Virus record (IMG/VR): IMGVR_UViG_3300032291_000368
Location: 1 to 20,183 of that record
Origin: a virus
Direction: 5' to 3' (one strand)
DNA: 20,183 bases
This document shows positions 1,424 to 17,846 of the stretch, one piece after another. The translations under genes were made by a program, and so were the position numbers. The notes below the pieces were generated by a model. It saw nothing but the letters and a program-made list of their open reading frames with translations. It made no database searches and was not told where the DNA came from. Each line of letters opens with the position of its first letter. The first letter of the stretch is position 1.

Positions 1424-4152
1424 TCAGGCTATTGGTCAACAACACCCCAGTTGATTTGTCTGCTGACTTTGACATCTCAATCAACAAGGCAATTGCCGAC
1501 ATCCGTGAACCACAATCACGATCTTCGGAATGGACAAAGACAATCACCATCCCCGGCACGGCACAAAACAACAAACTATTCTCACACATCTTTGAGGTTG
1601 AACATACGGTTAGAACATCCACACAATTTGCACCTGATTTCAACCCTAACAAGAAAGCATCAGCAGTCGTTCTGTTGGATGAGATAGAGCAGTTGAGGGG
1701 ATTCATCCGCTTGATTCAAATCAATGTTACAGATAGCACGGCAATCATTTATCAATGCAGTATTCACGGACAAACTGCTGATCTATTCACAACCATTGCA
1801 GAACGCAAACTAAATGCGTTGGATTTCTCGGAGTACAATCACTCCTTGTCATCAGGAAACATCTTCAATTCGTGGGACACAAGCATCATCAAGAACGGAA
1901 GCTCACAACCTTTTGCTTATGGTGATGGGTATGTGTATTCAATGATTGACAAAGGGCATGTGAGAAACATTGCGTTTTGGCAGTATAACGAACTCACACC
2001 TTGTCTTTATGCAAAGACCATCATTGATAAAATCTTCACTGGTGCTGGGTATTCATACACCAACGATTCTTTCTTCAATACAGACCGATTCAAGAGGTTG
2101 ATTATCCCACCACCAAACGGGTTGATTGCATCATCTACGCAGTTGACAAACCGATTGTTTTTGGCAAGTCGCTTGACAACAAGTCAGGCATTGACTTTGG
2201 GAACTACCTTGATATTCAACAACGACACCAGCGGTGGGGCTTTTGATAATGGCGGTAACTACAATCCAACTACCGGTGCTTATACTGTTCCCGTTGGTGG
2301 AACTTATTCCTTCTTCTTAGGATTGGATATCAACTTGACTCTTGATCCGTCATACCGCCCAGTTTTACAAGCGGAGATAGACATCAACATTGGGATGTAT
2401 GTCAATGGAGTTTTGAGGTCAACCAAATACATCTCTGTTGATCCAATGGCAATGCCACCTTTGTTGGAGTACGGATTCACAAATGTGGCTCTTTCAACAA
2501 CTGATGTTGTCACTTTCAAATTAACTCAAGTATATGACTGGGCAGATAAGTACACATTGACCAATGCGGATTTCACAATGAATCTCAATGTGAATTCAAC
2601 GGTTGAAAATGACATAACCGCATACACCTTCCAGTATGGGGAAACCGTGGATTTCGGAATCTTCTTCAATACCGAGGTAAAGCAAAGCGAATTGTTGATG
2701 TCTTTTGTGAAGATGTTCAACTTATACATTGAACCTGACAAAGATCAACCCAAGATTCTGCGTTGTGTTCCTCGTGATGAGTTCTACAACGGAAGTCAAT
2801 TGGATTGGACAGACAAATTGGATTATTCACAACCTGTGGAAATTGTTCCAATGGGTGAATTGGATGCAAATCCTTATGTGTTTAGTTACAAGCAAGGCAA
2901 GGATGATGGGAATGTCACCTACCAAGAGAACTATCAAACCACCTACGGACAAAGAACATTGCAAATTGACAATGACTTTGTCAAAAGTGAGAAGAAAATT
3001 GATATCGTTTTTGTACCTACCCAAATAAAGAACTACGACATAGGACAAAAGAACCTTGTTTTGTCATCGGTTGAAGGCAAAGAGGATGGTGATTTGAGGG
3101 TTTTGTACTATGGTGGATTGGTGAGTGGTGTAAGTTGCAGATTTATTATCTCCTTTATGGGGACAATTTCTATCCAGACATCGCAAGTCAAGACATCCAT
3201 TCCATTGACAATCCATTATGATTCACTTTCCAACCCGACTATTGACCTATTGTTTGGGATGCCGAGAGAAGTTGGTATCGGTGCTGGGTATAATTACACC
3301 AATGCGAACCTTGTCAATACTTACTATTACAGATTCATCCAAGAGATCACCAATAAGAACTCAAAAATTGTTCGGGCATACTTTAGATTAACTCCTTCCG
3401 ATTGGTATAACATACAATTCAAGAATCTGTATTTCTTTGAAGGGCAATACTGGAGATTGAACAAGGTTGAAAACTACAACCCCACCAATGAAGGTGTTTA
3501 CTTGTGTGAATTCTTGTTGGCTCAATTCATACCACCAGCAACAATCACCGTAAAAAGGATGGGTGCTGGAACTGCACAAGGAGCTCATACGGACATCTAT
3601 GGGGATGTGTATCCCGGTGGTAAATTTCCAATCAAACCAGGCATCAGCGGTGTTGGAGTTGGAACAACCGAAGGAAGTGGAATATTTGTGGGTGACAACA
3701 TCAGCGGAAACGGAATCAACAACAGCGGATTTGGTTCAACAGATATCAACTATGCAGATGGAGTGGACAACTCTGTTGCGTTGGTTTGTGATGACTTCAG
3801 TGTTCCCAAATCCAATACACTGTATGTTGGCAATTACGAGATGTATCCAAACTTTTTAAGTGGTGGTGCAGTTAAAACCGTATCAGCAAACTATTCGGCA
3901 ACCAAAGACGATTGGTTGATTTTAGCAACTACAACTGCCGGAAATTTTACAATAACTCTACCTGATCCAACTGGATTAAGTGGAAAAAGTTGGGTGATAA
4001 AAAAGCCATTACCAAGTCATCAAGTAACTATTGCAACGGCAACCGCTGCACAAATAGATGGCAGCGATTCACACACCCAAACATCAGCACACTCATACGA
4101 TGTCATCACAACTGATGGCGTTGAATTTTACATAATAAGCGAAGGACACTAA
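1420..4152 (+). CDS. Large tail tip/baseplate protein with fibre-like C-terminus
   Basis: A 910-aa protein whose N-terminal part (about 1-130: MIRLLVNNTPVDLSADFDIS, then a segment rich in IPGTAQN-type turns) resembles large tail proteins that follow the Dit-like gene in Bacteroidota phages. These are thought to act as baseplate hub or tail-associated adsorption proteins. Residues about 725-810 are rich in Gly, Asn and Ser and look like a flexible linker or shaft. The last 90 residues form a compact beta-rich module (NYSATKDDW ... ITLPDPTG ... GVEFYIISEGH) of the type found at fibre and collar tips, and similar in style to the end of the fibre protein at 8942-10042. It overlaps the upstream gene (ATGA at 1420) and its stop overlaps the next start (TAATG at 4150-4154). 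No peptidase or lysozyme motif was seen. Tail role is confident; exact position is inferred. Confidence 0.8.
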   Translation: MIRLLVNNTPVDLSADFDISINKAIADIREPQSRSSEWTKTITIPGTAQNNKLFSHIFEVEHTVRTSTQFAPDFNPNKKASAVVLLDEIEQLRGFIRLIQINVTDSTAIIYQCSIHGQTADLFTTIAERKLNALDFSEYNHSLSSGNIFNSWDTSIIKNGSSQPFAYGDGYVYSMIDKGHVRNIAFWQYNELTPCLYAKTIIDKIFTGAGYSYTNDSFFNTDRFKRLIIPPPNGLIASSTQLTNRLFLASRLTTSQALTLGTTLIFNNDTSGGAFDNGGNYNPTTGAYTVPVGGTYSFFLGLDINLTLDPSYRPVLQAEIDINIGMYVNGVLRSTKYISVDPMAMPPLLEYGFTNVALSTTDVVTFKLTQVYDWADKYTLTNADFTMNLNVNSTVENDITAYTFQYGETVDFGIFFNTEVKQSELLMSFVKMFNLYIEPDKDQPKILRCVPRDEFYNGSQLDWTDKLDYSQPVEIVPMGELDANPYVFSYKQGKDDGNVTYQENYQTTYGQRTLQIDNDFVKSEKKIDIVFVPTQIKNYDIGQKNLVLSSVEGKEDGDLRVLYYGGLVSGVSCRFIISFMGTISIQTSQVKTSIPLTIHYDSLSNPTIDLLFGMPREVGIGAGYNYTNANLVNTYYYRFIQEITNKNSKIVRAYFRLTPSDWYNIQFKNLYFFEGQYWRLNKVENYNPTNEGVYLCEFLLAQFIPPATITVKRMGAGTAQGAHTDIYGDVYPGGKFPIKPGISGVGVGTTEGSGIFVGDNISGNGINNSGFGSTDINYADGVDNSVALVCDDFSVPKSNTLYVGNYEMYPNFLSGGAVKTVSANYSATKDDWLILATTTAGNFTITLPDPTGLSGKSWVIKKPLPSHQVTIATATAAQIDGSDSHTQTSAHSYDVITTDGVEFYIISEGH

Positions 4153-10043: not shown

Positions 10044-10880
10044 ATGATACTTTCAACACACGGAATTTTAAGTTCAATTAGTGGCATAGTGCCAATTACT
10101 GCAACGGGAGGAACAATCACCTATTCGGGTGGTATGACTATTCACACCTTTACAAGTTCTGGAACATTCACTGTCTTAACCGCACCTGCTGGGGCAACTG
10201 TTGAGGCTTTAGTTGTTGCTGGTGGTGGTGGTGGTGGTGCTTTTTCTGGTGGTGCTGGTGGTGCTGGTGGCTTGATATATAACGCCACAAAATCAATATC
10301 TGTTACTGCTTATACAATTACAATAGGTAGCGGTGGTGTAAAACCAACATCAAATAGTGGAGGAAATACAAATGGTAATAACTCTGTTTTTGACACCTTG
10401 ACGGCTATTGGTGGTGGTCGTGGTGGTGTGCAAGGTTCAGAAAGTGGAAAAGATGGTGGTAGTGGTGGTGGTGCAACTGGAGGCGGAACTGTGAGAGGTC
10501 TTGGTACCGCCGGACAAGGAAATAATGGTGGCGCTGCAGATACTGGCACAACAGGTGCAAGTGGTGGTGGTGGTGCTGGAGCAGTTGGTGCAAATGCAGT
10601 ATCCACTACGGCTGGTGCTGGTGGTGTAGGTCTTGCTTACTCGATTAGTGGAACATCTACTTTTTATGCTGGTGGTGGTGGTGGTAGTTCGAATGTTGGA
10701 GCACTTAAAGGATTAGGCGGAAATGGAGGTGGTGGTAATGGTGAAGGTTTTAACTTAAACCCAGCCGCAACAAGTGGAGCAGCAAACACCGGTGGCGGTG
10801 GTGGTGGTAATTATTTCGCTGGTGCTGGTAATCAAGGGAACGGGGGTTCTGGTATAGTAATAATTTCTTATCCTACATAA
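10044..10880 (+). CDS. Glycine-rich phage adhesin
   Basis: A 278-aa protein with a short N-terminal beta domain (about 1-55, including GMTIHTFTSSGTFTV) followed by long glycine-rich stretches such as VVAGGGGGGAFSGGAGGAGG, interleaved with short polar or aromatic segments. It closes with GSGIVIISYPT, the usual end of this glycine-rich domain family in Bacteroidota phages and bacteria. The layout recalls glycine-rich adhesins such as phage S16 gp38, where polyglycine II helices carry variable loops that bind receptors. I propose that it tips or binds the fibre encoded just upstream; the similarity is of style, not aligned. It begins two bases after the fibre stop. The Gly codons are mostly GGT, in runs that could slip in frame. 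Confidence 0.8.
   Translation: MILSTHGILSSISGIVPITATGGTITYSGGMTIHTFTSSGTFTVLTAPAGATVEALVVAGGGGGGAFSGGAGGAGGLIYNATKSISVTAYTITIGSGGVKPTSNSGGNTNGNNSVFDTLTAIGGGRGGVQGSESGKDGGSGGGATGGGTVRGLGTAGQGNNGGAADTGTTGASGGGGAGAVGANAVSTTAGAGGVGLAYSISGTSTFYAGGGGGSSNVGALKGLGGNGGGGNGEGFNLNPAATSGAANTGGGGGGNYFAGAGNQGNGGSGIVIISYPT
10221..10238 (+). repeat. (GGT)6 tract in adhesin gene; others nearby
   Basis: Six GGT triplets in a row encode glycines at the start of the adhesin's glycine-rich part. A (GGT)5 tract lies at 10671-10685, and shorter runs at 10564-10574 and 10794-10808. Slippage would add or remove whole glycine codons without breaking the frame. Confidence 0.75.
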
Positions 10881-10883
10881 AAT

Positions 10884-11192
10884 ATGCAAGTTGCTAAAAT
10901 TGAAAATAACATAGTTTTAGAAGTAATCGTTGCTGATTCTGTTGAATGGTGTATTGAAACATTTGGCGGTGAATGGGTGCGAACTTACTACAATACACCT
11001 GGTAAAAACTTTGCGGGTTTTGGTTTTATTTATTACCCTGATAAAGACAATTTTTCAAGCCCACAACCCTATCCAAGTTGGACATTGGATGAAAATTGCT
11101 TTTGGCAACCGCCTACGCCATATCCTAATGACGGATGTTTATGGACTTGGGATGAAGAAACTTTAACTTGGATTAATCCAATTTGTAACTGA
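10884..11192 (+). CDS. Tail-fibre-associated protein (putative chaperone)
   Basis: A 102-aa protein rich in Trp, Tyr and Pro. The order KIENNIVLEVIVADSVEWC, then a GGEWVRTYYNTPGKNFAG segment, then YPSWTLDENCFWQPPTPYP and a WTWDEETLTW end, is characteristic of a small protein found beside fibre genes in many marine and Bacteroidota phages. Its role is not established to my knowledge; a fibre assembly factor or a small tip subunit are the usual guesses. It starts three bases after the adhesin stop, and its own stop overlaps the next start (TGATG at 11190-11194). There is no signal peptide or membrane span. The family resemblance is from memory and is fairly clear; the function is inferred from gene order. 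Confidence 0.7.
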   Translation: MQVAKIENNIVLEVIVADSVEWCIETFGGEWVRTYYNTPGKNFAGFGFIYYPDKDNFSSPQPYPSWTLDENCFWQPPTPYPNDGCLWTWDEETLTWINPICN

Positions 11193-11401
11193 TGAAACAC
11201 AGCGAATGGATGAAACCCACAACCGATGAAGTGAGAGAGTTGGAATACACACAACTCGAGCAGAACAACGGAAACGGCAAAGGCAATTTGTCTACAACTG
11301 TTCCCATCAATGGCGGTATGTGGGTTGTTCTATTAGCAGTGATTATATTTGGATTATGGAAGCAATACCGTATATCACGACACTCTACATCGGAATTTTA
11401 A
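11192..11401 (+). CDS. Small single-span membrane protein
   Basis: A 69-aa protein with a hydrophilic N-terminal half (MKHSEWMKPTTDEVRELEYT) and one hydrophobic segment at about 43-57 (MWVVLLAVIIFGLWK), followed by a short basic tail. This suggests one membrane span. It overlaps the preceding stop by one base and contains the start of a shorter overlapping ORF at 11356. It sits at the front of a run of small membrane and coiled-coil proteins that ends in a wall enzyme and a holin-like protein, so a lysis-related role is plausible. No family is recognised. The overlap with the upstream gene supports it being translated. Confidence 0.6.
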   Translation: MKHSEWMKPTTDEVRELEYTQLEQNNGNGKGNLSTTVPINGGMWVVLLAVIIFGLWKQYRISRHSTSEF

Positions 11402-11442
11402 TAGGCTATCAAATACACCGTAAAAAATGCAAAAGCAAATAA
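11356..11442 (+). CDS. Tiny overlapping membrane-peptide ORF
   Basis: ATG 11356 opens a 28-codon frame, MEAIPYITTLYIGILIGYQI followed by a basic end rich in Lys. It overlaps the end of the 69-aa gene and the first 16 bases of the 92-aa gene, and so bridges them in a third frame. The shape (short, one hydrophobic helix, positive tail) is typical of small membrane peptides and fits a holin-like or antiholin-like role in a lysis cassette. It is below normal gene-calling length, and no ribosome-binding site stands out. It fills what would otherwise be a 25-base gap, which slightly favours it. Confidence 0.35.
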   Translation: MEAIPYITTLYIGILIGYQIHRKKCKSK

Positions 11443-11705
11443 AACCCAATGCGCTACCTGTTAGCTTTGAACAATTTAAAAAGAACCCTGTGGCTGCCGT
11501 GGCTTTTTGCATGCTGTTGGCTGTTAGCTATTTGTATATGGACTTGCGTTCGGGCAATCAACAGCAGATTGACGAATGTCGCAAAGAGATGGCAGTACTA
11601 CGAGCAGAGCAGAAACAAGCATATAGGGCTTTGAAGACGGCAGATTCTGCATTGTCTGCAGCCATTACTGAACTACGCATCATTAATTCAATGAAGAAAC
11701 TATGA
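11427..11705 (+). CDS. Membrane-anchored coiled-coil protein, i-spanin-like
   Basis: A 92-aa protein with a short cytoplasmic N-terminus, a membrane span at about 22-38 (AAVAFCMLLAVSYLYMD) and a predicted periplasmic coiled coil (QQQIDECRKEMAVLRAEQKQ, then AYRALKTADSALSAAITELR). This topology is that of inner-membrane spanins, which join with an outer-membrane partner to disrupt the outer membrane at lysis. The gene overlaps the next one by ATGA (11702-11705), and the next gene is also an N-terminally anchored coiled-coil protein, so the two may act as a pair. No lipobox is seen in either. The spanin call is inferred from topology and place; the gene is secure. Confidence 0.6.
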   Translation: MQKQIKPNALPVSFEQFKKNPVAAVAFCMLLAVSYLYMDLRSGNQQQIDECRKEMAVLRAEQKQAYRALKTADSALSAAITELRIINSMKKL

Positions 11706-12145
11706 GATTGTTAATCATTTTTGCATTCGCTTTCATCGGTGGTTATTTGTTCACCGAATCTTGGGCACTTGAACCCAAGCCAGTTAGTGACATTGATGCG
11801 TTGTTGAAGAAGATTCAGCAAAACACACAAGCCGTTGGACAAGCCACTAAACAAGCACACGAGGTGAGTGAGAAATTGGTGGAAGCAAAAGTGGTTGAGA
11901 AAGAGCAATTGAAAGAAGCCGTGGTGAATGCTGAAAAGAAAGCCGAATCCGTGGTTCAACAGATGCAAGTTGTTCAAAACCAAATGGAGGTGTATGCCGT
12001 CAAGATGGTAGGTGCTGGATTGGATACTACCACCACACCAATTGAGTTCAAAGGAGTGATCTATGATGCTTATTTGAACTATCTTTCCGAAGGTGGAAAA
12101 GAAGATTTTGAATACTTTAGGGTTTATCTATGGCAGCCAAAGTAA
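11702..12145 (+). CDS. N-terminally anchored coiled-coil protein
   Basis: A 147-aa protein with a hydrophobic N-terminus (MRLLIIFAFAFIGGYLFTES), acting as a signal anchor or signal peptide, followed by a long coiled coil at about 35-105 rich in Gln, Glu, Lys and Val (for example EKLVEAKVVEKEQLKEAVVN). Its C-terminal tail (FKGVIYDAYLNYLSEGGKED) looks folded. It overlaps the i-spanin-like gene by four bases and the 39-aa basic-protein gene by 16 bases. There is no cysteine in a lipobox, so it is not a classical outer-membrane spanin. It may be the periplasmic partner of the preceding protein or a tail-associated protein. The family is not recognised. Confidence 0.6.
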   Translation: MRLLIIFAFAFIGGYLFTESWALEPKPVSDIDALLKKIQQNTQAVGQATKQAHEVSEKLVEAKVVEKEQLKEAVVNAEKKAESVVQQMQVVQNQMEVYAVKMVGAGLDTTTTPIEFKGVIYDAYLNYLSEGGKEDFEYFRVYLWQPK

Positions 12146-12249
12146 ACATCACATCATTTTGTGTGAAACCAAAAAACAAATTGGGAAGACATACCAAGCA
12201 CAAGAACAAACACAAGAGTTCAAAACCATATAAAGGACAAGGGAAATGA
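12130..12249 (+). CDS. Small Lys/His-rich basic protein (39 aa)
   Basis: ATG 12130 begins MAAKVNITSFCVKPKNKLGR and continues with HTKHKNKHKSSKPYKGQGK to a stop at 12249. Eleven of 39 residues are Lys, three are His and one Arg. Peptides of the pattern GRHTKHxNKxKSxKxYxGQG occur, as I recall, in many Bacteroidota phages just before a lysin gene, so conservation supports a real gene although it is shorter than usual cut-offs. Its stop overlaps the start of the next gene (ATGA at 12246-12249), and GGACAAGGG before that start may serve as a ribosome site. A nucleic-acid-binding or structural role is plausible from charge alone; the function is unknown. Confidence 0.75.
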   Translation: MAAKVNITSFCVKPKNKLGRHTKHKNKHKSSKPYKGQGK

Positions 12250-12821
12250 TAGATAAAATCAAACAAGCGATGAAGGTGAAGAACTACAAGTTCTTTGAAT
12301 CAGGTGATTACAACTTGAACATCATTGGGATTCGCAATTCCGATACTGGAAGCAAAGTGACAAATGTCTTTGATGACTTGTTAACCGTGAGTTACAAAAT
12401 CGGTGATGTGTGGCATTTTAAGAAATGGGCTGCGACAACGGATCCCGGCACAAAGGGAGTGAAGGAATTCCACAATGCACAAGGCGTTGCTCGTTTAGTT
12501 CCCGGACAATATCGTGGTTCACACGCAATCGGTTTGCATCAAGGCAAATACGAAGCGTTAAAACAAGCAAAGCCCGTCAAGGTTTATCGTGATGCTAACA
12601 AGGATATGAACTACGATACCAAGTTGATCACCGAAGGTATCTACGGAATCAACATCCACAAGGCTGGTGCAGATTCAACCTATGTTGAGAACTGGAGTGA
12701 AGGTTGTCAGGTGTTCAAAAAGTCAGCAGATTTTGAGGAGTTTATGGCTTTAGTCAAGAAGGCTGCCACATTGCACGGCAATTCATTCACTTATACACTT
12801 TTAGAAAGCAAAGATTTATGA
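12246..12821 (+). CDS. Cell-wall enzyme (endolysin candidate) with SxGC motif
   Basis: A 191-aa protein. Near its C-terminus it has GIYGINIHKAG (His138) and, about a dozen residues later, NWSEGCQVF (Ser151, Gly153, Cys154). This H...SxGC pattern recalls the catalytic signature of L,D-transpeptidase/YkuD-type domains, in which the Cys is the nucleophile. The enzyme could therefore act on peptidoglycan cross-links. Placement between small membrane proteins and a holin-like gene fits an endolysin. The N-terminal half (about 20-100) is mixed alpha/beta with Trp and Asp. There is no signal peptide, so export would need the holin. It overlaps both neighbours by ATGA. The reaction direction (hydrolysis or transfer) cannot be told from sequence. 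A virion-borne wall enzyme is the alternative. Confidence 0.7.
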   Translation: MIDKIKQAMKVKNYKFFESGDYNLNIIGIRNSDTGSKVTNVFDDLLTVSYKIGDVWHFKKWAATTDPGTKGVKEFHNAQGVARLVPGQYRGSHAIGLHQGKYEALKQAKPVKVYRDANKDMNYDTKLITEGIYGINIHKAGADSTYVENWSEGCQVFKKSADFEEFMALVKKAATLHGNSFTYTLLESKDL

Positions 12822-13042
12822 AAAAACTTTTAGAGATTTTCACGGGTGACAAAGGAGAGATGTCATCAAAACGATTCGTGGGCATTATCGGTGCTTTTGT
12901 TTTGTTTGCTACAATGGCTCATAATTCTCTCAGCCCTGCTGATATCGTACCTTCTCCAGAATTGGTGAGTGCGGTTGAATTCATCGTGATTGCTTGTCTT
13001 GGATTCACATCTATTGACAAGTTCTCAAACAAAAAAGATTGA
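12818..13042 (+). CDS. Holin-like membrane protein
   Basis: A 74-aa protein with two hydrophobic segments, at about 20-36 (FVGIIGAFVLFATMAHN) and 49-63 (LVSAVEFIVIACLGFTS), joined by a loop with Pro and Ser, and a short basic tail (IDKFSNKKD). The N-terminal piece (MKKLLEIFTGDKGEMSSKRF) is typical of short holin-like proteins of Bacteroidota phages. Two spans and a charged tail fit a class II holin, which would release or activate the wall enzyme encoded just upstream. The start overlaps the lysin stop (ATGA). It is the last gene before the GCTATTT block and portal. No experimental basis; the topology is convincing. Confidence 0.7.
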   Translation: MKKLLEIFTGDKGEMSSKRFVGIIGAFVLFATMAHNSLSPADIVPSPELVSAVEFIVIACLGFTSIDKFSNKKD

Positions 13043-13044
13043 TT

Positions 13045-13058
13045 GCTATTTGATAGAG
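13045..13058 (+). promoter_or_regulatory. GCTATTT start-site block before the portal gene
   Basis: GCTATTTGATAGAG stands directly before ATG 13059, almost identical to the block at 5785-5798 and with the same seven-base gap from GCTATTT to the start. A TTTG box is not found at the proper distance upstream, so it is either a partial promoter or a translation signal. It supports 13059 as the true start of the portal rather than the further TTG at 12990. Confidence 0.4.
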
Positions 13059-14948
13059 ATGATATTCCAAAGATTAAACTTTCACGATAATAAACTGCCT
13101 GTTTTCAAAGAGAACAAAGCGAAAGGATTCGTGACTTTTGGTGCTGACAATCTCTATCCTGATTTCTTAATTGAATTATTCAATAAATCACCCAAACACA
13201 ATGCCATCGTTTCTGCAAAAGCATCATACATTGCTGGAATTGGCACGGAGGTATTTGGTTCAAGCACGGAGGAGATTGCAAAAGCCGAAGCCAAACTCAA
13301 AAATATAAACGCCTACGAAACCTACGAAGAACTCAAAGCAAAGATTGCATACGATGCCGAGTTATTCAATGGGTTTGCAGTTGAGGTGATTTGGAACAAG
13401 GCAAAGACCGCACCTTCGGAATTCTATCACATTCCATTCAAAGATATCCGCAAAGGTCTTGAGGGTGATTATGTGTATTGTGCTGACTGGACAGATAGCA
13501 AAGCGGAGAAAATCCACTATCAACCATACAACCCAATCACAAGGGAATCAAAACAAATATATTATTGTCAATTTTACCGTCCCGGACAAGGCGAATATCC
13601 CTTGCCTGATTATGTAGGTGCGTTGAAATACATTGAGGTTGATACCGAGATTTCAAATTACTATTTGAATAGCATCAAGAACGGATTCACGGCACAAACT
13701 CACATCCAGTTATTCAAAGGGATCCCCACACCTGAAGAAGCTCGTGCAACTGCAAGGAGATTCAAAGAGAATTATCAAGGTACGGACAATGCCGGTGGGT
13801 TAATCATCCAATACAACGATCCAACGGAGAAGGAATCAGTCATTAACAACCTTCAACCATCGGATTTTGACAAGCAATTTGACTTGTTAAATAAGACCGT
13901 ACAACAAGAGATATTTGTTGCACACAAAGTCAACTCTCCAATGTTGTTTGGAGTTCGTGTGGAAGGTCAATTGGGAGGTCGTAGCGAGTTGATTGAAGCC
14001 TATGAGATGTTCCATCACGCATACATTGAACCCCGTCAACAAAAGATTGATGATACCTTCGCTTACTTGCTTGAACCTATCGCATCTGTGAAGTTGGAAA
14101 CAATCAACAAGCCACCAATCGGTCTTGACTATCAAGCGTTGTTTACTGCTGGAGTTATCACAAACGAAGAAGCAAGAAAGGAACTTGGATTGCCATTAAT
14201 CACCGATGTGAAACAATCATCTTTGAATGATGCTATCAATGCTTTGAGTCCGTTGGTTGCAAACAATGTGTTGTCAAATATGACAATTAACGAGAAACGC
14301 CAATTGGCAAATCTTCCACCGATTGCCGGAGGTGATGCTTTGCCATCCGCAGCACCAGTTGAAGCCGTTGCCCTATCAAAACAAAATCCTTTTGGATGGG
14401 ATGATGAAAGAGACATCAAGGTATTTCAACAATACGGAGAGAGTGCAGACAACTTTGAAGCCTATAAGTTTGAGTTCGTGGATGCCGTTGAAACTGCCAT
14501 CTTGAATGTGTTGAAAGAGAATAAAGGTCTTCAAGTTGGGGACATTGTCAACATCACCAAACTGGATGCAAAGGTTGTCGCTGATGCGATTGCTAAACTT
14601 GCCAAAGCGGAGTTGATTAAATCATACGAAGATGGTCTTGAAACAACCCCGAAAGGAGTTGAAGAAGTGAAGAGATTGCAAACCGAGATTGTGGTTCGTT
14701 ACAAATACGGATTAGCACCCGGCATTGAAGGTGGAATGATTATCCCTGGTTCAAGAGATTTTTGCCGACAAATTGATGGAAGCAACCGTGTATATTCAAG
14801 AGAGGATATCAATGCGATGTCAACTCAATTGGGATACGATGTATGGAAGCGGAGAGGTGGTTGGTATCACAACCCCGTCTTGGATGTGAACACCCCACAA
14901 TGTAGACATATTTGGGTTCAACAATTATTAAGGAGGATTAAACGATGA
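13059..14948 (+). CDS. Portal protein with winged-helix and MuF-like C-terminus
   Basis: A 629-aa protein. Residues about 1-400 are the portal: AIVSAKASYIAGIG near 49-62, then YVGALKYIEVDTEISNYYLN near 185-204, VNSPMLFGVRVEGQLGGRSE at 291-310, and GVITNEEARKELGLPLI at 365-381, a signature of phage portals. A linker leads to a segment at about 475-540 that looks like a winged helix (VGDIVNITKLDAKVVADAIA with a wing at YEDGLETTPKG). The end, about 565-620, has SRDFCRQI, YSREDI, YHNP and NTPQCRHIW, with Cys569, His604, Cys615 and His617, as in MuF/SPP1 gp7-like minor capsid proteins. Portal and MuF-like parts are usually separate adjacent genes, so this is a fusion. The stop overlaps the next ATG by four bases. 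Function is confident; the middle domain is inferred. Confidence 0.88.
   Translation: MIFQRLNFHDNKLPVFKENKAKGFVTFGADNLYPDFLIELFNKSPKHNAIVSAKASYIAGIGTEVFGSSTEEIAKAEAKLKNINAYETYEELKAKIAYDAELFNGFAVEVIWNKAKTAPSEFYHIPFKDIRKGLEGDYVYCADWTDSKAEKIHYQPYNPITRESKQIYYCQFYRPGQGEYPLPDYVGALKYIEVDTEISNYYLNSIKNGFTAQTHIQLFKGIPTPEEARATARRFKENYQGTDNAGGLIIQYNDPTEKESVINNLQPSDFDKQFDLLNKTVQQEIFVAHKVNSPMLFGVRVEGQLGGRSELIEAYEMFHHAYIEPRQQKIDDTFAYLLEPIASVKLETINKPPIGLDYQALFTAGVITNEEARKELGLPLITDVKQSSLNDAINALSPLVANNVLSNMTINEKRQLANLPPIAGGDALPSAAPVEAVALSKQNPFGWDDERDIKVFQQYGESADNFEAYKFEFVDAVETAILNVLKENKGLQVGDIVNITKLDAKVVADAIAKLAKAELIKSYEDGLETTPKGVEEVKRLQTEIVVRYKYGLAPGIEGGMIIPGSRDFCRQIDGSNRVYSREDINAMSTQLGYDVWKRRGGWYHNPVLDVNTPQCRHIWVQQLLRRIKR
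14930..14936 (+). promoter_or_regulatory. Strong Shine-Dalgarno site AAGGAGG
   Basis: AAGGAGG ends eight bases before ATG 14945 and lies inside the last codons of the portal gene. Most genes in this window and in Bacteroidota lack such a site, so it stands out and fixes the start of the connector gene. Confidence 0.75.
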
Positions 14949-15553: not shown

Positions 15554-15990
15554 CACTAAACCAAATAATAGCAAAGATTCAAACGGCAGCCGAAAGCCAT
15601 AAGATGGTTCACAAGTTTGGCGTTGGTCAGCAGTCAAATATGACGGTTGAGAATGTTGAATACTATCCTTTGGTTTGGTTGTATCCAGATGGCTTCAATT
15701 TGCAGTCAACTGGAAACTTGATGACATACAACTTTGCATTGCTTGTGATGGACAGAGTATTTGAAAGCGAGAGCAACACCATTGAGGTTCTTTCCGATAC
15801 TGCACAGATTATGACTGACATCTTCGCATTGATTGAAAACAACACACAAGATGATGAGGATTTTGAGATTGTGATCAACGGCAATGCGTCTCCATTCTAC
15901 GATTCAAAAACTGATATTCTCGCTGGTTATGCAATCAACTTCCAAGTCATCACTCCTTATTTACACAATACTTGCGTTGTTCCTGTTTAG
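15550..15990 (+). CDS. Tail completion/terminator-like protein
   Basis: A 146-aa protein with a helical start (MTLNQIIAKIQTAAESHKMV), then beta strands rich in aromatics (YYPLVWLYPDGFN, MTYNFALLVMDRVFESESN), a helix (IEVLSDTAQIMTDIFALIEN) and a last strand set ending in NFQVITPYLHNTCVVPV. This order is that of a small virion protein common in Bacteroidota phages between the connector and the neck protein, and it resembles tail terminators or completion proteins, which form a ring joining head and tail. The final part of the gene overlaps by 62 bases with the next gene, in another frame. The role is inferred from size, fold style and the connector upstream. Confidence 0.7.
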   Translation: MTLNQIIAKIQTAAESHKMVHKFGVGQQSNMTVENVEYYPLVWLYPDGFNLQSTGNLMTYNFALLVMDRVFESESNTIEVLSDTAQIMTDIFALIENNTQDDEDFEIVINGNASPFYDSKTDILAGYAINFQVITPYLHNTCVVPV

Positions 15991-16213
15991 TTGGTTGTGG
16001 GCGTTCTTCAATTATGATGAACCAGTCCGCTATATTAAACCACTAAATGTTGAGATGCACGAAAGGATTATAGTGAAGGAGAAAATCAAAAGGATGCGTC
16101 TAATTGATTCAATCAATCACTTTGATACAATATACCTTGACACCTTCAAACCTTCAGCAGAAGGGCTAAAAAAGGCAATAGGTTTGCACATCCACTTGGA
16201 TACCACTCTATGA
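15929..16213 (+). CDS. Small membrane protein, spanin-like
   Basis: A 94-aa protein from ATG 15929: a short polar start (MQSTSKSSL), a strong hydrophobic span at about 9-27 (LLIYTILALFLFSWLWAFF), then a charged, probably periplasmic segment (HERIIVKEKIKRMRLIDSIN). The ATG lies inside the preceding gene, giving a 62-base overlap; a start after the stop at 15990 would cut through the membrane span, so I keep the overlapping start. An upstream start at 15884 adds an unneeded 15 residues. Its stop overlaps ATG 16210. One membrane span plus a charged tail fits an accessory or spanin-like protein, here outside the main lysis cassette. No family is recognised. Confidence 0.6.
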   Translation: MQSTSKSSLLIYTILALFLFSWLWAFFNYDEPVRYIKPLNVEMHERIIVKEKIKRMRLIDSINHFDTIYLDTFKPSAEGLKKAIGLHIHLDTTL

Positions 16214-17049
16214 AAAACAATAACATCATTGTGATCCCAAAGCCGTGGGAAGAAACCAAAGTTCTTTTGATCTCGGATTTGCATTGGGACAATCCAAAAT
16301 GTGACAGAGATTTACTGAAGAAACATCTTGATGAAGCCTTGAAAGGAAACAATGATGTGTTGATCAACGGTGATTTGTTTTGCTTAATGCAAGGTGCATA
16401 CGATCCCAGGAAGAGCAAATCGGACATAAGACCTGAACACAATGTTGCAAACTATTTTGATGCCATCATCAATACTGCCGTTGAATGGTTTTTGCCATAT
16501 GCACATATCATCAAGTTTATCGGTTACGGCAATCACGAGACAAGCATCTTGAAGCGACAAGAGACCGATATCATTGAACGCTTTGTGACTTTGTTAAACT
16601 ATCGGGGAGGTACAGCAATTCAGGTGGGTGGTTACGGTGGATGGGTGAAATATCAATTCAACCATCACTCCAAAAAGATTGGATACAACATTAAGTATAT
16701 GCACGGGTTTGGCGGTGGGGGTCCTGTAACTCGTGGAACTATCCAGCACAACCGGATATCGGTGAATGTGGAGGGTGCTGATGCAATTTGGATGGGGCAT
16801 GTTCACGAAGATTACGAGATGACATACACCGTGGAATACTTGTCAGCCGTTGGAACTGTTTTGCTTCGTGATATTTTGATGATTCGTACTTCAGCCTATA
16901 AAGAAGAATACGGAGATGGTTCAAAGGGTTGGCATGTTGAAAGAGGTGCATCACCAAAGTTCACCGGAGGTCGTTGGTTGTATATGCTACCAACAAGAAC
17001 TGAGAAAGGTGACAGAGTAATTCGGGCGTACACACACAAGACAATATGA
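16210..17049 (+). CDS. Calcineurin-like metallophosphoesterase
   Basis: A 279-aa protein with the full metallophosphoesterase motif set: DLHW (Asp23, His25), NGDLF (Asp55), GNHE (Asn108, His109), YMHGFGGGG (His165) and GHVHE (His197, His199). These bind two metal ions and catalyse phosphoester hydrolysis; the substrate may be nucleic acid, nucleotides or phosphoproteins and cannot be read from sequence. It is 279 aa, with an insertion (about 60-100) and a C-terminal part after the last motif, and no second domain is obvious. It is linked by ATGA overlaps to the genes before (spanin-like) and after (unknown, 84 aa), so it is co-expressed with tail genes. Possible roles are DNA processing, nucleotide recycling or removal of a host signal nucleotide; only the fold is secure. 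Confidence 0.88.
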   Translation: MKNNNIIVIPKPWEETKVLLISDLHWDNPKCDRDLLKKHLDEALKGNNDVLINGDLFCLMQGAYDPRKSKSDIRPEHNVANYFDAIINTAVEWFLPYAHIIKFIGYGNHETSILKRQETDIIERFVTLLNYRGGTAIQVGGYGGWVKYQFNHHSKKIGYNIKYMHGFGGGGPVTRGTIQHNRISVNVEGADAIWMGHVHEDYEMTYTVEYLSAVGTVLLRDILMIRTSAYKEEYGDGSKGWHVERGASPKFTGGRWLYMLPTRTEKGDRVIRAYTHKTI

Positions 17050-17300
17050 TCAAGGTTCAAATCATACACGAGACGAAGAACGACAACTGGATGGGTTTGA
17101 TTGAAGGCGAATCCGACATCATTCAAATCTTGGAAGATGGAATGGTTGATGAACATCAAATCGTTGCCATATCCCAATTGTTTGAAAACACCCAACTCTA
17201 TATGCGAGGAGGTCACATCATCTTGATTGAGGAAAACTATTATACCTTTGTTGTCAAATGGATGCAGTCAACCCAACACACTACAAACAAGGCGAGATAG
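17046..17300 (+). CDS. Unknown small protein, 84 aa
   Basis: A small acidic protein (MIKVQIIHETKNDNWMGLIE) with beta-strand-like and helical stretches, including QLYMRGGHIILIEENYYTFV near residues 51-70. It overlaps the metallophosphoesterase stop by ATGA, and its last 43 bases overlap the DUF3310 gene. No family or catalytic motif is recognised. Co-expression with the phosphoesterase makes an accessory role possible. The long overlap with the DUF3310 gene is unusual but its end is fixed by the stop at 17298-17300. Confidence 0.55.
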   Translation: MIKVQIIHETKNDNWMGLIEGESDIIQILEDGMVDEHQIVAISQLFENTQLYMRGGHIILIEENYYTFVVKWMQSTQHTTNKAR

Positions 17301-17494
17301 AATGTATTGATGCCATTGAATCTGCCACCATCAAAAAGAAAGGATTGGTTGCGGTTTGTACTGGTAACATCATCAAGTACTTGTGGAGGTGCGAAGACAA
17401 GAACGGATTGGAGGATTTGTACAAAGCGAAGTGGTATCTTGACAAGCTCATCGCAGAAAAAGAAAAACAATCCAAGAAGAATGCTACCTTATAA
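17258..17494 (+). CDS. DUF3310 protein
   Basis: A 78-aa protein matching the DUF3310 family: NPTHYKQGEIECIDAIES near the start and GNIIKYLWRCEDKNGLEDLY at about 37-56, followed by AKWYLDKLIAEKE. DUF3310 proteins are common in phages, sometimes fused to or near nucleotide-metabolism proteins, but no activity is proven that I know of. The N-terminus from ATG 17258 matches the family closely, so the 43-base overlap with the preceding gene is probably real. The last codons carry GCTACC followed by TATAAG, which resembles the GCTATTT start block and precedes the next start. Confidence 0.85.
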   Translation: MDAVNPTHYKQGEIECIDAIESATIKKKGLVAVCTGNIIKYLWRCEDKNGLEDLYKAKWYLDKLIAEKEKQSKKNATL

Positions 17495-17495
17495 G

Positions 17496-17846
17496 ATGAA
17501 AACAATGATAAAAATTTTAACCTTTGGGATAATGTTTTGGTCGTTGAATTTATCAGGGCAAGTGCTGATTGATACCAATACAATCAAACAAGCCAACACA
17601 TATTTGGTCAAAGGTGCGATTGCAAGGGAACAAGTCACGCATTTACGAAAGATTGTGACATCGGATTCCATCATTATTTCGGAACAAGATTCAGTCATCA
17701 CCAAACAAAAGGTAAACATCGCATACTTGAATGCGGAGAATGATTCACTTGTGAAGCAAAATAAAGCCATCTCACGCACTTTGTCGGTCTTCAAGGGTAT
17801 AAGTATAGGTTTAGGGATTTTAAGCGTTTTAATGTGGCTACAATAG
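17496..17846 (+). CDS. Secreted or membrane coiled-coil protein, spanin-like
   Basis: A 116-aa protein from ATG 17496 (17481 is also possible). It has a signal-peptide-like start (MKTMIKILTFGIMFWSLNLS then GQ), a coiled-coil region at about 30-92 with TSDSIIISEQDSVITKQ and NAENDSLVKQNKAISRT, and a C-terminal hydrophobic span (FKGISIGLGILSVLMWLQ). This shape, with a hydrophobic segment at each end and a Ser/Asp-rich coil between them, recurs in Bacteroidota phages and is often viewed as a unimolecular spanin (fusing inner and outer membranes) or other lysis accessory. No lipobox cysteine is seen, which argues against the classical u-spanin design. It overlaps the neck gene by 13 bases. Function inferred from topology only. 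Confidence 0.55.
   Translation: MKTMIKILTFGIMFWSLNLSGQVLIDTNTIKQANTYLVKGAIAREQVTHLRKIVTSDSIIISEQDSVITKQKVNIAYLNAENDSLVKQNKAISRTLSVFKGISIGLGILSVLMWLQ

Follow-up and report, generated by a model that had tools for sequence, protein, structure and literature searches.

A conserved phage lysis region with a predicted YkuD-fold endolysin and a candidate lipobox-free outer-membrane pair

How the phages of Bacteroidota, including the abundant crAss-like gut phages, rupture the outer membrane of their hosts has not been worked out. The question is raised by a 20,183-bp stretch of viral DNA (IMG/VR IMGVR_UViG_3300032291_000368, a single virus record, here called the window), in which an initial annotation read a lysis region at 11192-13042 and placed the outer-membrane step in a cluster formed by the genes C92 and D147. 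The analysis described here retains the lysis region, its wall enzyme and the lack of a lipoprotein spanin, and withdraws the outer-membrane step from C92/D147. The likeliest outer-membrane proteins are instead two small proteins encoded farther downstream, sp109 and sp116, whose function is predicted. The host is likely a member of the Bacteroidota, as had been proposed, because the portal protein matched only 7 of 50,697 phage records, and the hosts of all seven are Nonlabens/Persicivirga or Bacteroides. The whole window gave no megablast match in the same records. Searched against them, D147, G74, E39, a longer E39 relative and sp116 had no match, and C92 had a single one (LR745206).

All seven small frames described for 11192-13042 are present there on the plus strand. 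Short frames alone are weak evidence (53 open reading frames (ORFs) of at least 25 amino acids (aa) overlap positions 10500-13800), but conserved order and purifying selection support C92, D147, E39, F191 and G74 as genes. Median ratios of nonsynonymous to synonymous substitution (dN/dS) between the window gene and its relatives are 0.07 for F (n=63), 0.12 for both G (n=52) and E (n=65), 0.20 for C (n=61, 23 with saturated dS) and 0.26 for D (n=46). These five genes form a conserved operon, with A69 and B28 as optional members. The frames had been said to overlap end to end, which holds for C/D, E/F and F/G (4 nucleotides (nt) each) and for D/E (16 nt); A69 and C92 are separated by a 25-nt gap instead. 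Each IMG/VR scan was limited to its best 80 loci; the counts below thus describe near relatives rather than the whole collection, and related contigs are non-independent. Topology is assigned by hydropathy alone throughout.

The wall enzyme is F191 (191 aa, 12246..12821, plus strand), a likely endolysin. It belongs to phrog_3000, a family of unknown function, and also matches the endolysin family phrog_33083. Its structure model, built from 67 sequences, has a predicted local distance difference test score (pLDDT) of 96.1 and a predicted template modelling score (pTM) of 0.92. With VIA-align, the best Z scores of this model are to the LD-carboxypeptidases Pgp2 (9.5), Bd1075 (9.2) and Csd6 (9.1), and L,D-transpeptidases and DpaA (7.9) rank after them. 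Nearly all of the 35 structure matches listed are of L,D-transpeptidase type (the match with the best Z has a root-mean-square deviation of 3.7 and 128 aligned), and Foldseek alone gave an E value of 0.01. The family carries the (S/T)XGC motif and the Cys-His-small-residue triad of these cysteine hydrolases, with H138, S151 and G153 invariant in 67/67 sequences and C154 present in 66/67. Together with the phrog_33083 match, the YkuD fold and the conserved H138, S151 and C154 support the wall-enzyme call made for this frame. The arginine of the L,D-transpeptidase motif GC-phi-R-(M/L), as given in the accessible part of PMC12729407, is absent from all 67 sequences, where position 156 is taken by V (66 sequences) or A (one). 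Because of this missing arginine, F191 is predicted to be a YkuD-fold hydrolase rather than a canonical L,D-transpeptidase.

Pfam and NCBIfam models do not recognise the F191 family, and neither they nor a profile search of the PDB gave a convincing match; one of 13 members matched Tlde1 at E 0.032. The relative G004 (31 kb) is taken as complete on account of its 127-nt direct terminal repeat. Among the 25 listed of 27 Pfam families in its 47 ORFs of at least 70 aa there is no other wall enzyme, which makes F191 the sole candidate found in that genome; a second, unrecognised enzyme is possible there, because Pfam also misses F itself. Relatives of F occur in 30 phage records, including crAss002, Rudgehvirus jaberico, the Bacteroides phages DAC16 and SJC03 and P2-like Pseudoalteromonas phages, and at 72 loci in bacterial genomes. 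F is not always a lysis gene, since its relative in Pseudoalteromonas phage ACA1 lies among tail genes, between tail tube and tail chaperone (L085:2953-3573), an arrangement that speaks against a lysis role.

Three other settings of F were observed. At L127, L128, L130, L136 and L143, in Pseudoalteromonas/Moritella genomes, F stands between ORFs of similar sizes (149-150 and 92-97 aa). In the 634-kb phage LR745206.1 a 508-aa ORF (L086:2065-3591) carries the F relative (match 3001-3576) as its C-terminal part, while its N-terminal part looks like a baseplate spike; judged from this ORF, the domain may also be used in virions. In Flavobacteriia genomes (L098-L102, L104, L105, L109, L115), a recurring set of ORFs (~230, 95 and 151-165 aa) comes after F, and the sequences listed from it open with a common IANQFKGLPME-type start.

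The operon closes with G74 (12818..13042, plus strand), a likely holin judged from its size and hydropathy, with hole formation as its predicted activity. One of its hydrophobic segments is strong, and the second was read by eye. G adjoins the C-D pair in 105 of 126 distinct C..D regions among the loci examined, lies beside F or an M15 endolysin gene in relatives, and has a profile that matches genes with two transmembrane (TM) segments next to F in bacterial genomes (probability 90). It is missing in the other 21; the 12 of these listed are regions that end 0-670 nt after D. With the genes denoted by their first letters, the commonest order is C-D-E-F-G-portal (63/126), and shorter versions are C-D-E-F (12), C-D-E-F-G (11), C-D alone (9) and C-D-E-G (1). 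The order C-D-(E)-G-sp109-sp116-F is found in 12 regions, and in one more that ends before F. Six regions read C-D-E-G-uSpanin-M15, where uSpanin is a unimolecular spanin (u-spanin) with a lipobox, and two further orders also contain a u-spanin; M15 of L209 has a match to phrog_894, an endolysin family. Four regions read G-F-C-D. In five others G, C and D stand with no endolysin within range, and a conserved basic protein adjoins the genes in four of these. Within these 126 regions, and for the types of u-spanin searched, F and a u-spanin never occur together, nor do M15 and sp109/sp116.

Is there a lipoprotein among the candidates? None had been seen to carry a lipobox, and D147, A69, sp109 and sp116 in fact contain no cysteine at all. 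A lipobox scan that admitted GTG and TTG starts, and that recovered the u-spanins of L209 and L234 as positive controls, returned three minus-strand frames over longer genes in the window, none of which passes the overlapping-frame filter. The pattern followed the PROSITE form; a stricter consensus stands in the accessible part of PMC6139136. A lipoprotein spanin elsewhere in the genome had been named beforehand as the finding that would overturn the initial annotation. None was found in five relatives of 30.1-31.9 kb (G001-G005), each of which carries C, D, E, F, G, sp109 and sp116. Terminal repeats measure 127 nt in G003 and G004 and 19 nt in G001, and are absent from G002 and G005. Four matches were left in these relatives: three are internal starts of a single 247-codon frame, and the fourth is a 44-aa frame whose strand is opposite to that of the genes.

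Two spanin-like proteins had also been reported outside the lysis region; both exist, and they are now the preferred outer-membrane candidates. On hydropathy, sp109 (94 aa, 15929..16213, open from 15884, plus strand) is i-spanin-like, with an N-terminal membrane anchor followed by a periplasmic part. From alignment and hydropathy, sp116 (116 aa, 17496..17846, plus strand) has a signal without lipobox, a coil and a C-terminal membrane anchor. The two genes overlap out of frame in 45 of 83 distinct sp116 genes, by 98 nt in 44 and by 107 nt in one. They are separated by 1282-1458 nt at 32 of the 83 loci, as in the window, where the 1282-nt insert (16210..17494, plus strand) holds a calcineurin-like phosphoesterase and small genes that are not part of the system; at the remaining six no sp109 lies within the stretch examined. 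The C-terminal hydrophobic segment is present in 83/83 sp116 proteins and a lipobox in 0/83. In 81/83 a G, S or A precedes the first Q in the signal region, which is consistent with cleavage by signal peptidase I. Between holin and F, the sp109-sp116 pair of 12 regions occupies the slot that a u-spanin fills elsewhere. In G003 and G004, sp116 is the only ORF to pass a strict filter for an N-terminal signal and a C-terminal TM segment. Around the 72 bacterial-genome loci with F, 17 ORFs of sp116 topology lie within 1.5 kb of F and 3 lie farther away, a density ~13x higher near F (0.081 vs 0.006 per kb); five of the 17 fit a lipobox.

The C92/D147 pair was the initial idea for the spanin, and was demoted once L209-type cassettes showed C-D adjoining a lipobox u-spanin. 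C92 (11427..11705, plus strand), the first gene of the pair, has an N-terminal membrane anchor and a periplasmic coil. D147 (11702..12145, plus strand) is a coiled-coil protein whose alignments reveal a conserved C-terminal motif, YD..L.Y...GG..DFEY.R.Y, and whose all-helical model is of low confidence (pTM 0.28). It had been described as an anchored coiled coil; a loose AxA-like cleavage rule fits 112/112 distinct D proteins, of which 0/112 have a lipobox, and D147 is instead probably exported and cleaved. As a spanin, C92 would be the inner-membrane coiled coil and D147 the exported coil whose conserved C-terminal part would reach the outer membrane. The two coiled-coil genes are adjacent with a 4-nt overlap and are kept together in 126 distinct regions and, next to the holin, in a number of gene orders, which fits that scheme, as does a C relative next to a second overlapping coiled-coil gene in the 634-kb phage (L087). 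However, a lipobox u-spanin accompanies the pair in 8 of the 126 regions, neither protein has a lipobox or a visible outer-membrane anchor, and 10 of 80 F loci have no D match, so that a spanin role for C92/D147 is unlikely. C-D accompany the holin across the different endolysin and spanin types, which fits a holin accessory better than a spanin. At the three of the ten D-less F loci that were examined, on large phage contigs (L055:6574-7044, L056, L081), G-F is followed by a secreted, peptidase-like HESLH-motif protein and a ~630-aa secreted protein, which replace C-D.

A layout similar to that of sp109/sp116 is found in crAss-type phages, where F is followed by an overlapping gene pair. At six crAss-type loci with re-called starts, the second gene lies in the +1 frame and overlaps the first by 77-125 nt; with the starts as annotated, the overlap is 20-50 nt in crAss002, jaberico and cr127_1. 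No clear similar pair was seen in the regions around the endolysins of Bacteroides phage B124-14, P12024S and P2559S.

Several observations weigh against sp109 and sp116 as the outer-membrane pair. Homology to the crAss pair was not shown for sp109 (profile probability 0.5 against the crAss first proteins) and is weak for sp116 (82 over 27 columns against the second proteins); a profile match at 98 was discarded as circular, because three crAss sequences stood in both alignments. The crAss pair may be partly lipidated, since three of seven second proteins (L090, L107, L118) fit the lipobox pattern; in L096, which is closely similar to L118, the lipobox Cys is replaced by Tyr. Only 68 of the 83 sp116 proteins reach the N-terminal hydropathy threshold, and the topology filter returns nothing in the window, its own sp116 included, probably because its search for a start stops after the first 40 codons of each frame and the called start of the window sp116 frame is an upstream TTG. 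Among the 17 F-neighbour ORFs in bacterial genomes, 12 look like one family, so that their statistical independence is overstated. No outer-membrane anchor is visible in either protein. The window pair has no cysteine, and a periplasmic cysteine is lacking in only ~4% of known two-component spanins, as far as the accessible part of PMC6139136 goes.

The window pair is, moreover, split by its 1282-nt insert and, downstream of the portal, flanks other head-tail genes, as would be expected if sp109 and sp116 were head-tail or neck genes. This explanation is improbable, however, given that the pair sits between holin and F in 12 other regions, that a signal and a membrane anchor suit an envelope role, and that the sp116 topology is unique in the two relatives taken as complete (G003, G004). 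We do not claim sp109 and sp116 as members of the spanin families, because the lipoprotein that defines those families was looked for and not found in the pair; that they may work in a spanin-like way is a separate claim.

A spanin might also be unneeded if F191 acted like DpaA, detaching outer-membrane proteins from the wall and leaving a loosened outer membrane to fail on its own. DpaA is among the structure matches of the F191 YkuD fold and likewise does without the L,D-transpeptidase arginine, according to the accessible part of PMC10653827. Yet the best fold matches are LD-carboxypeptidases rather than DpaA, and outside the 126 regions F relatives do adjoin lipobox u-spanins (L095, L156), which together make this account quite improbable.

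Phage phiKT disruptin is a model for direct disruption of the outer membrane, and E39 (12130..12249, plus strand), a small, strongly basic and conserved operon protein, could be imagined to act in the same manner; this is very improbable, as E39 is also found in six cassettes having a u-spanin, its longer relatives adjoin other basic proteins, and it has no signal or membrane segment on hydropathy. E39 is probably not a lysis protein. Its longer relatives, which occur in other cassettes, adjoin a conserved 114-aa basic protein (L226:2097-2584, L234:4677-5167), and this suggests that E39 is one member of a group of small, basic proteins of phages.

With sp109/sp116 preferred for the outer membrane, a two-piece lysis system of Bacteroidota phages can be proposed. 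The holin G74 would open the inner membrane, after which F191 would cut either the wall's peptide stems or the links between the wall and outer-membrane proteins. The N-terminus of sp109 would hold it in the inner membrane, and sp116 would be exported and held there by its C-terminus. Their periplasmic parts would then interact and perform the outer-membrane step as a lipoprotein-free spanin-like pair. C92 and D147 would be a holin-linked accessory pair, acting in timing or assembly, and not a spanin. The operon, its conservation, the fold of F191, the signal types, the topology from hydropathy, the gene overlap seen in relatives and the common cassette slot are computed results; each activity, the contact between sp109 and sp116, the way sp116 gets to the outer membrane and the part played by C92/D147 are inferred. 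For the model as a whole we consider the case evenly balanced. A broader version, in which many phages of Bacteroidota, among them this freshwater-type group and some of the Crassvirales, use a lipid-free overlapping sp109/sp116 pair and a YkuD-fold endolysin in place of Rz/Rz1 and u-spanins, is put forward tentatively.

The remaining frames lie at the upstream edge of the operon. A69 (69 aa, 11192..11401, plus strand) is an optional protein with one C-terminal hydrophobic segment and no cysteine, present in 4 of the 116 distinct C..D regions whose upstream sequence measures 350 nt or more. B28 (11356..11442, plus strand) is a possible 28-aa membrane peptide; described before as nested, it in fact bridges A69 and C92. 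The same frame adjoins A69 in L049 and L201 as well as in the window, and not in L015; B28 is the weakest of the seven frames and its status as a gene is doubtful. Just upstream of the lysis region, positions 10044-10880 encode a glycine-rich protein that matches PF21722 (E 6e-26) and is probably a tail protein.

The present work names two testable genes, sp109 and sp116, and a wall enzyme missed by Pfam and NCBIfam models; if the broader version is true, a lipoprotein is no general requirement of spanins. In the accessible part of PMC12596118, a survey with a lipobox filter reports u-spanins alone for Bacteroidota phages, and PMC6139136, in the part available, lists Bacteroides phage B124-14 and the Croceibacter phages P2559S and P2559Y as spanin-less. 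Searches of the open-licence literature, in the parts of each source available, found no published description of a lipid-free spanin pair.

Among known systems, F191 resembles Pgp2, Csd6, Bd1075 and the amidase DpaA in fold and in its Cys-His-small-residue triad, and differs from them as a single 191-aa domain that has no signal peptide and lies in a phage lysis operon. The YkuD domain is counted among phage lytic proteins, with 10 proteins, in the accessible part of the PhaLP database paper (PMC8310338); those were assigned by Pfam/CDD models, whereas Pfam models miss the F191 family. Like the overlapped two-component spanins Rz/Rz1 (PMC6139136, in the part available), the candidate pair combines the N-terminal anchor and periplasmic part of sp109 with an sp116 gene that starts out of frame inside sp109 in many relatives, and lies near holin and endolysin in other phages. 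Unlike Rz/Rz1, sp116 carries a C-terminal membrane anchor in place of the o-spanin lipobox, and the window genes stand apart. Unimolecular spanins of the T1 gp11 type have been reported for Bacteroidota phages (PMC12596118, PMC8776804, in the parts available). With these sp116 shares a signal, a periplasmic coil, a C-terminal membrane anchor and the same cassette slot; it differs from them in having no N-terminal lipobox and in forming a unit with a second, overlapping gene, sp109.

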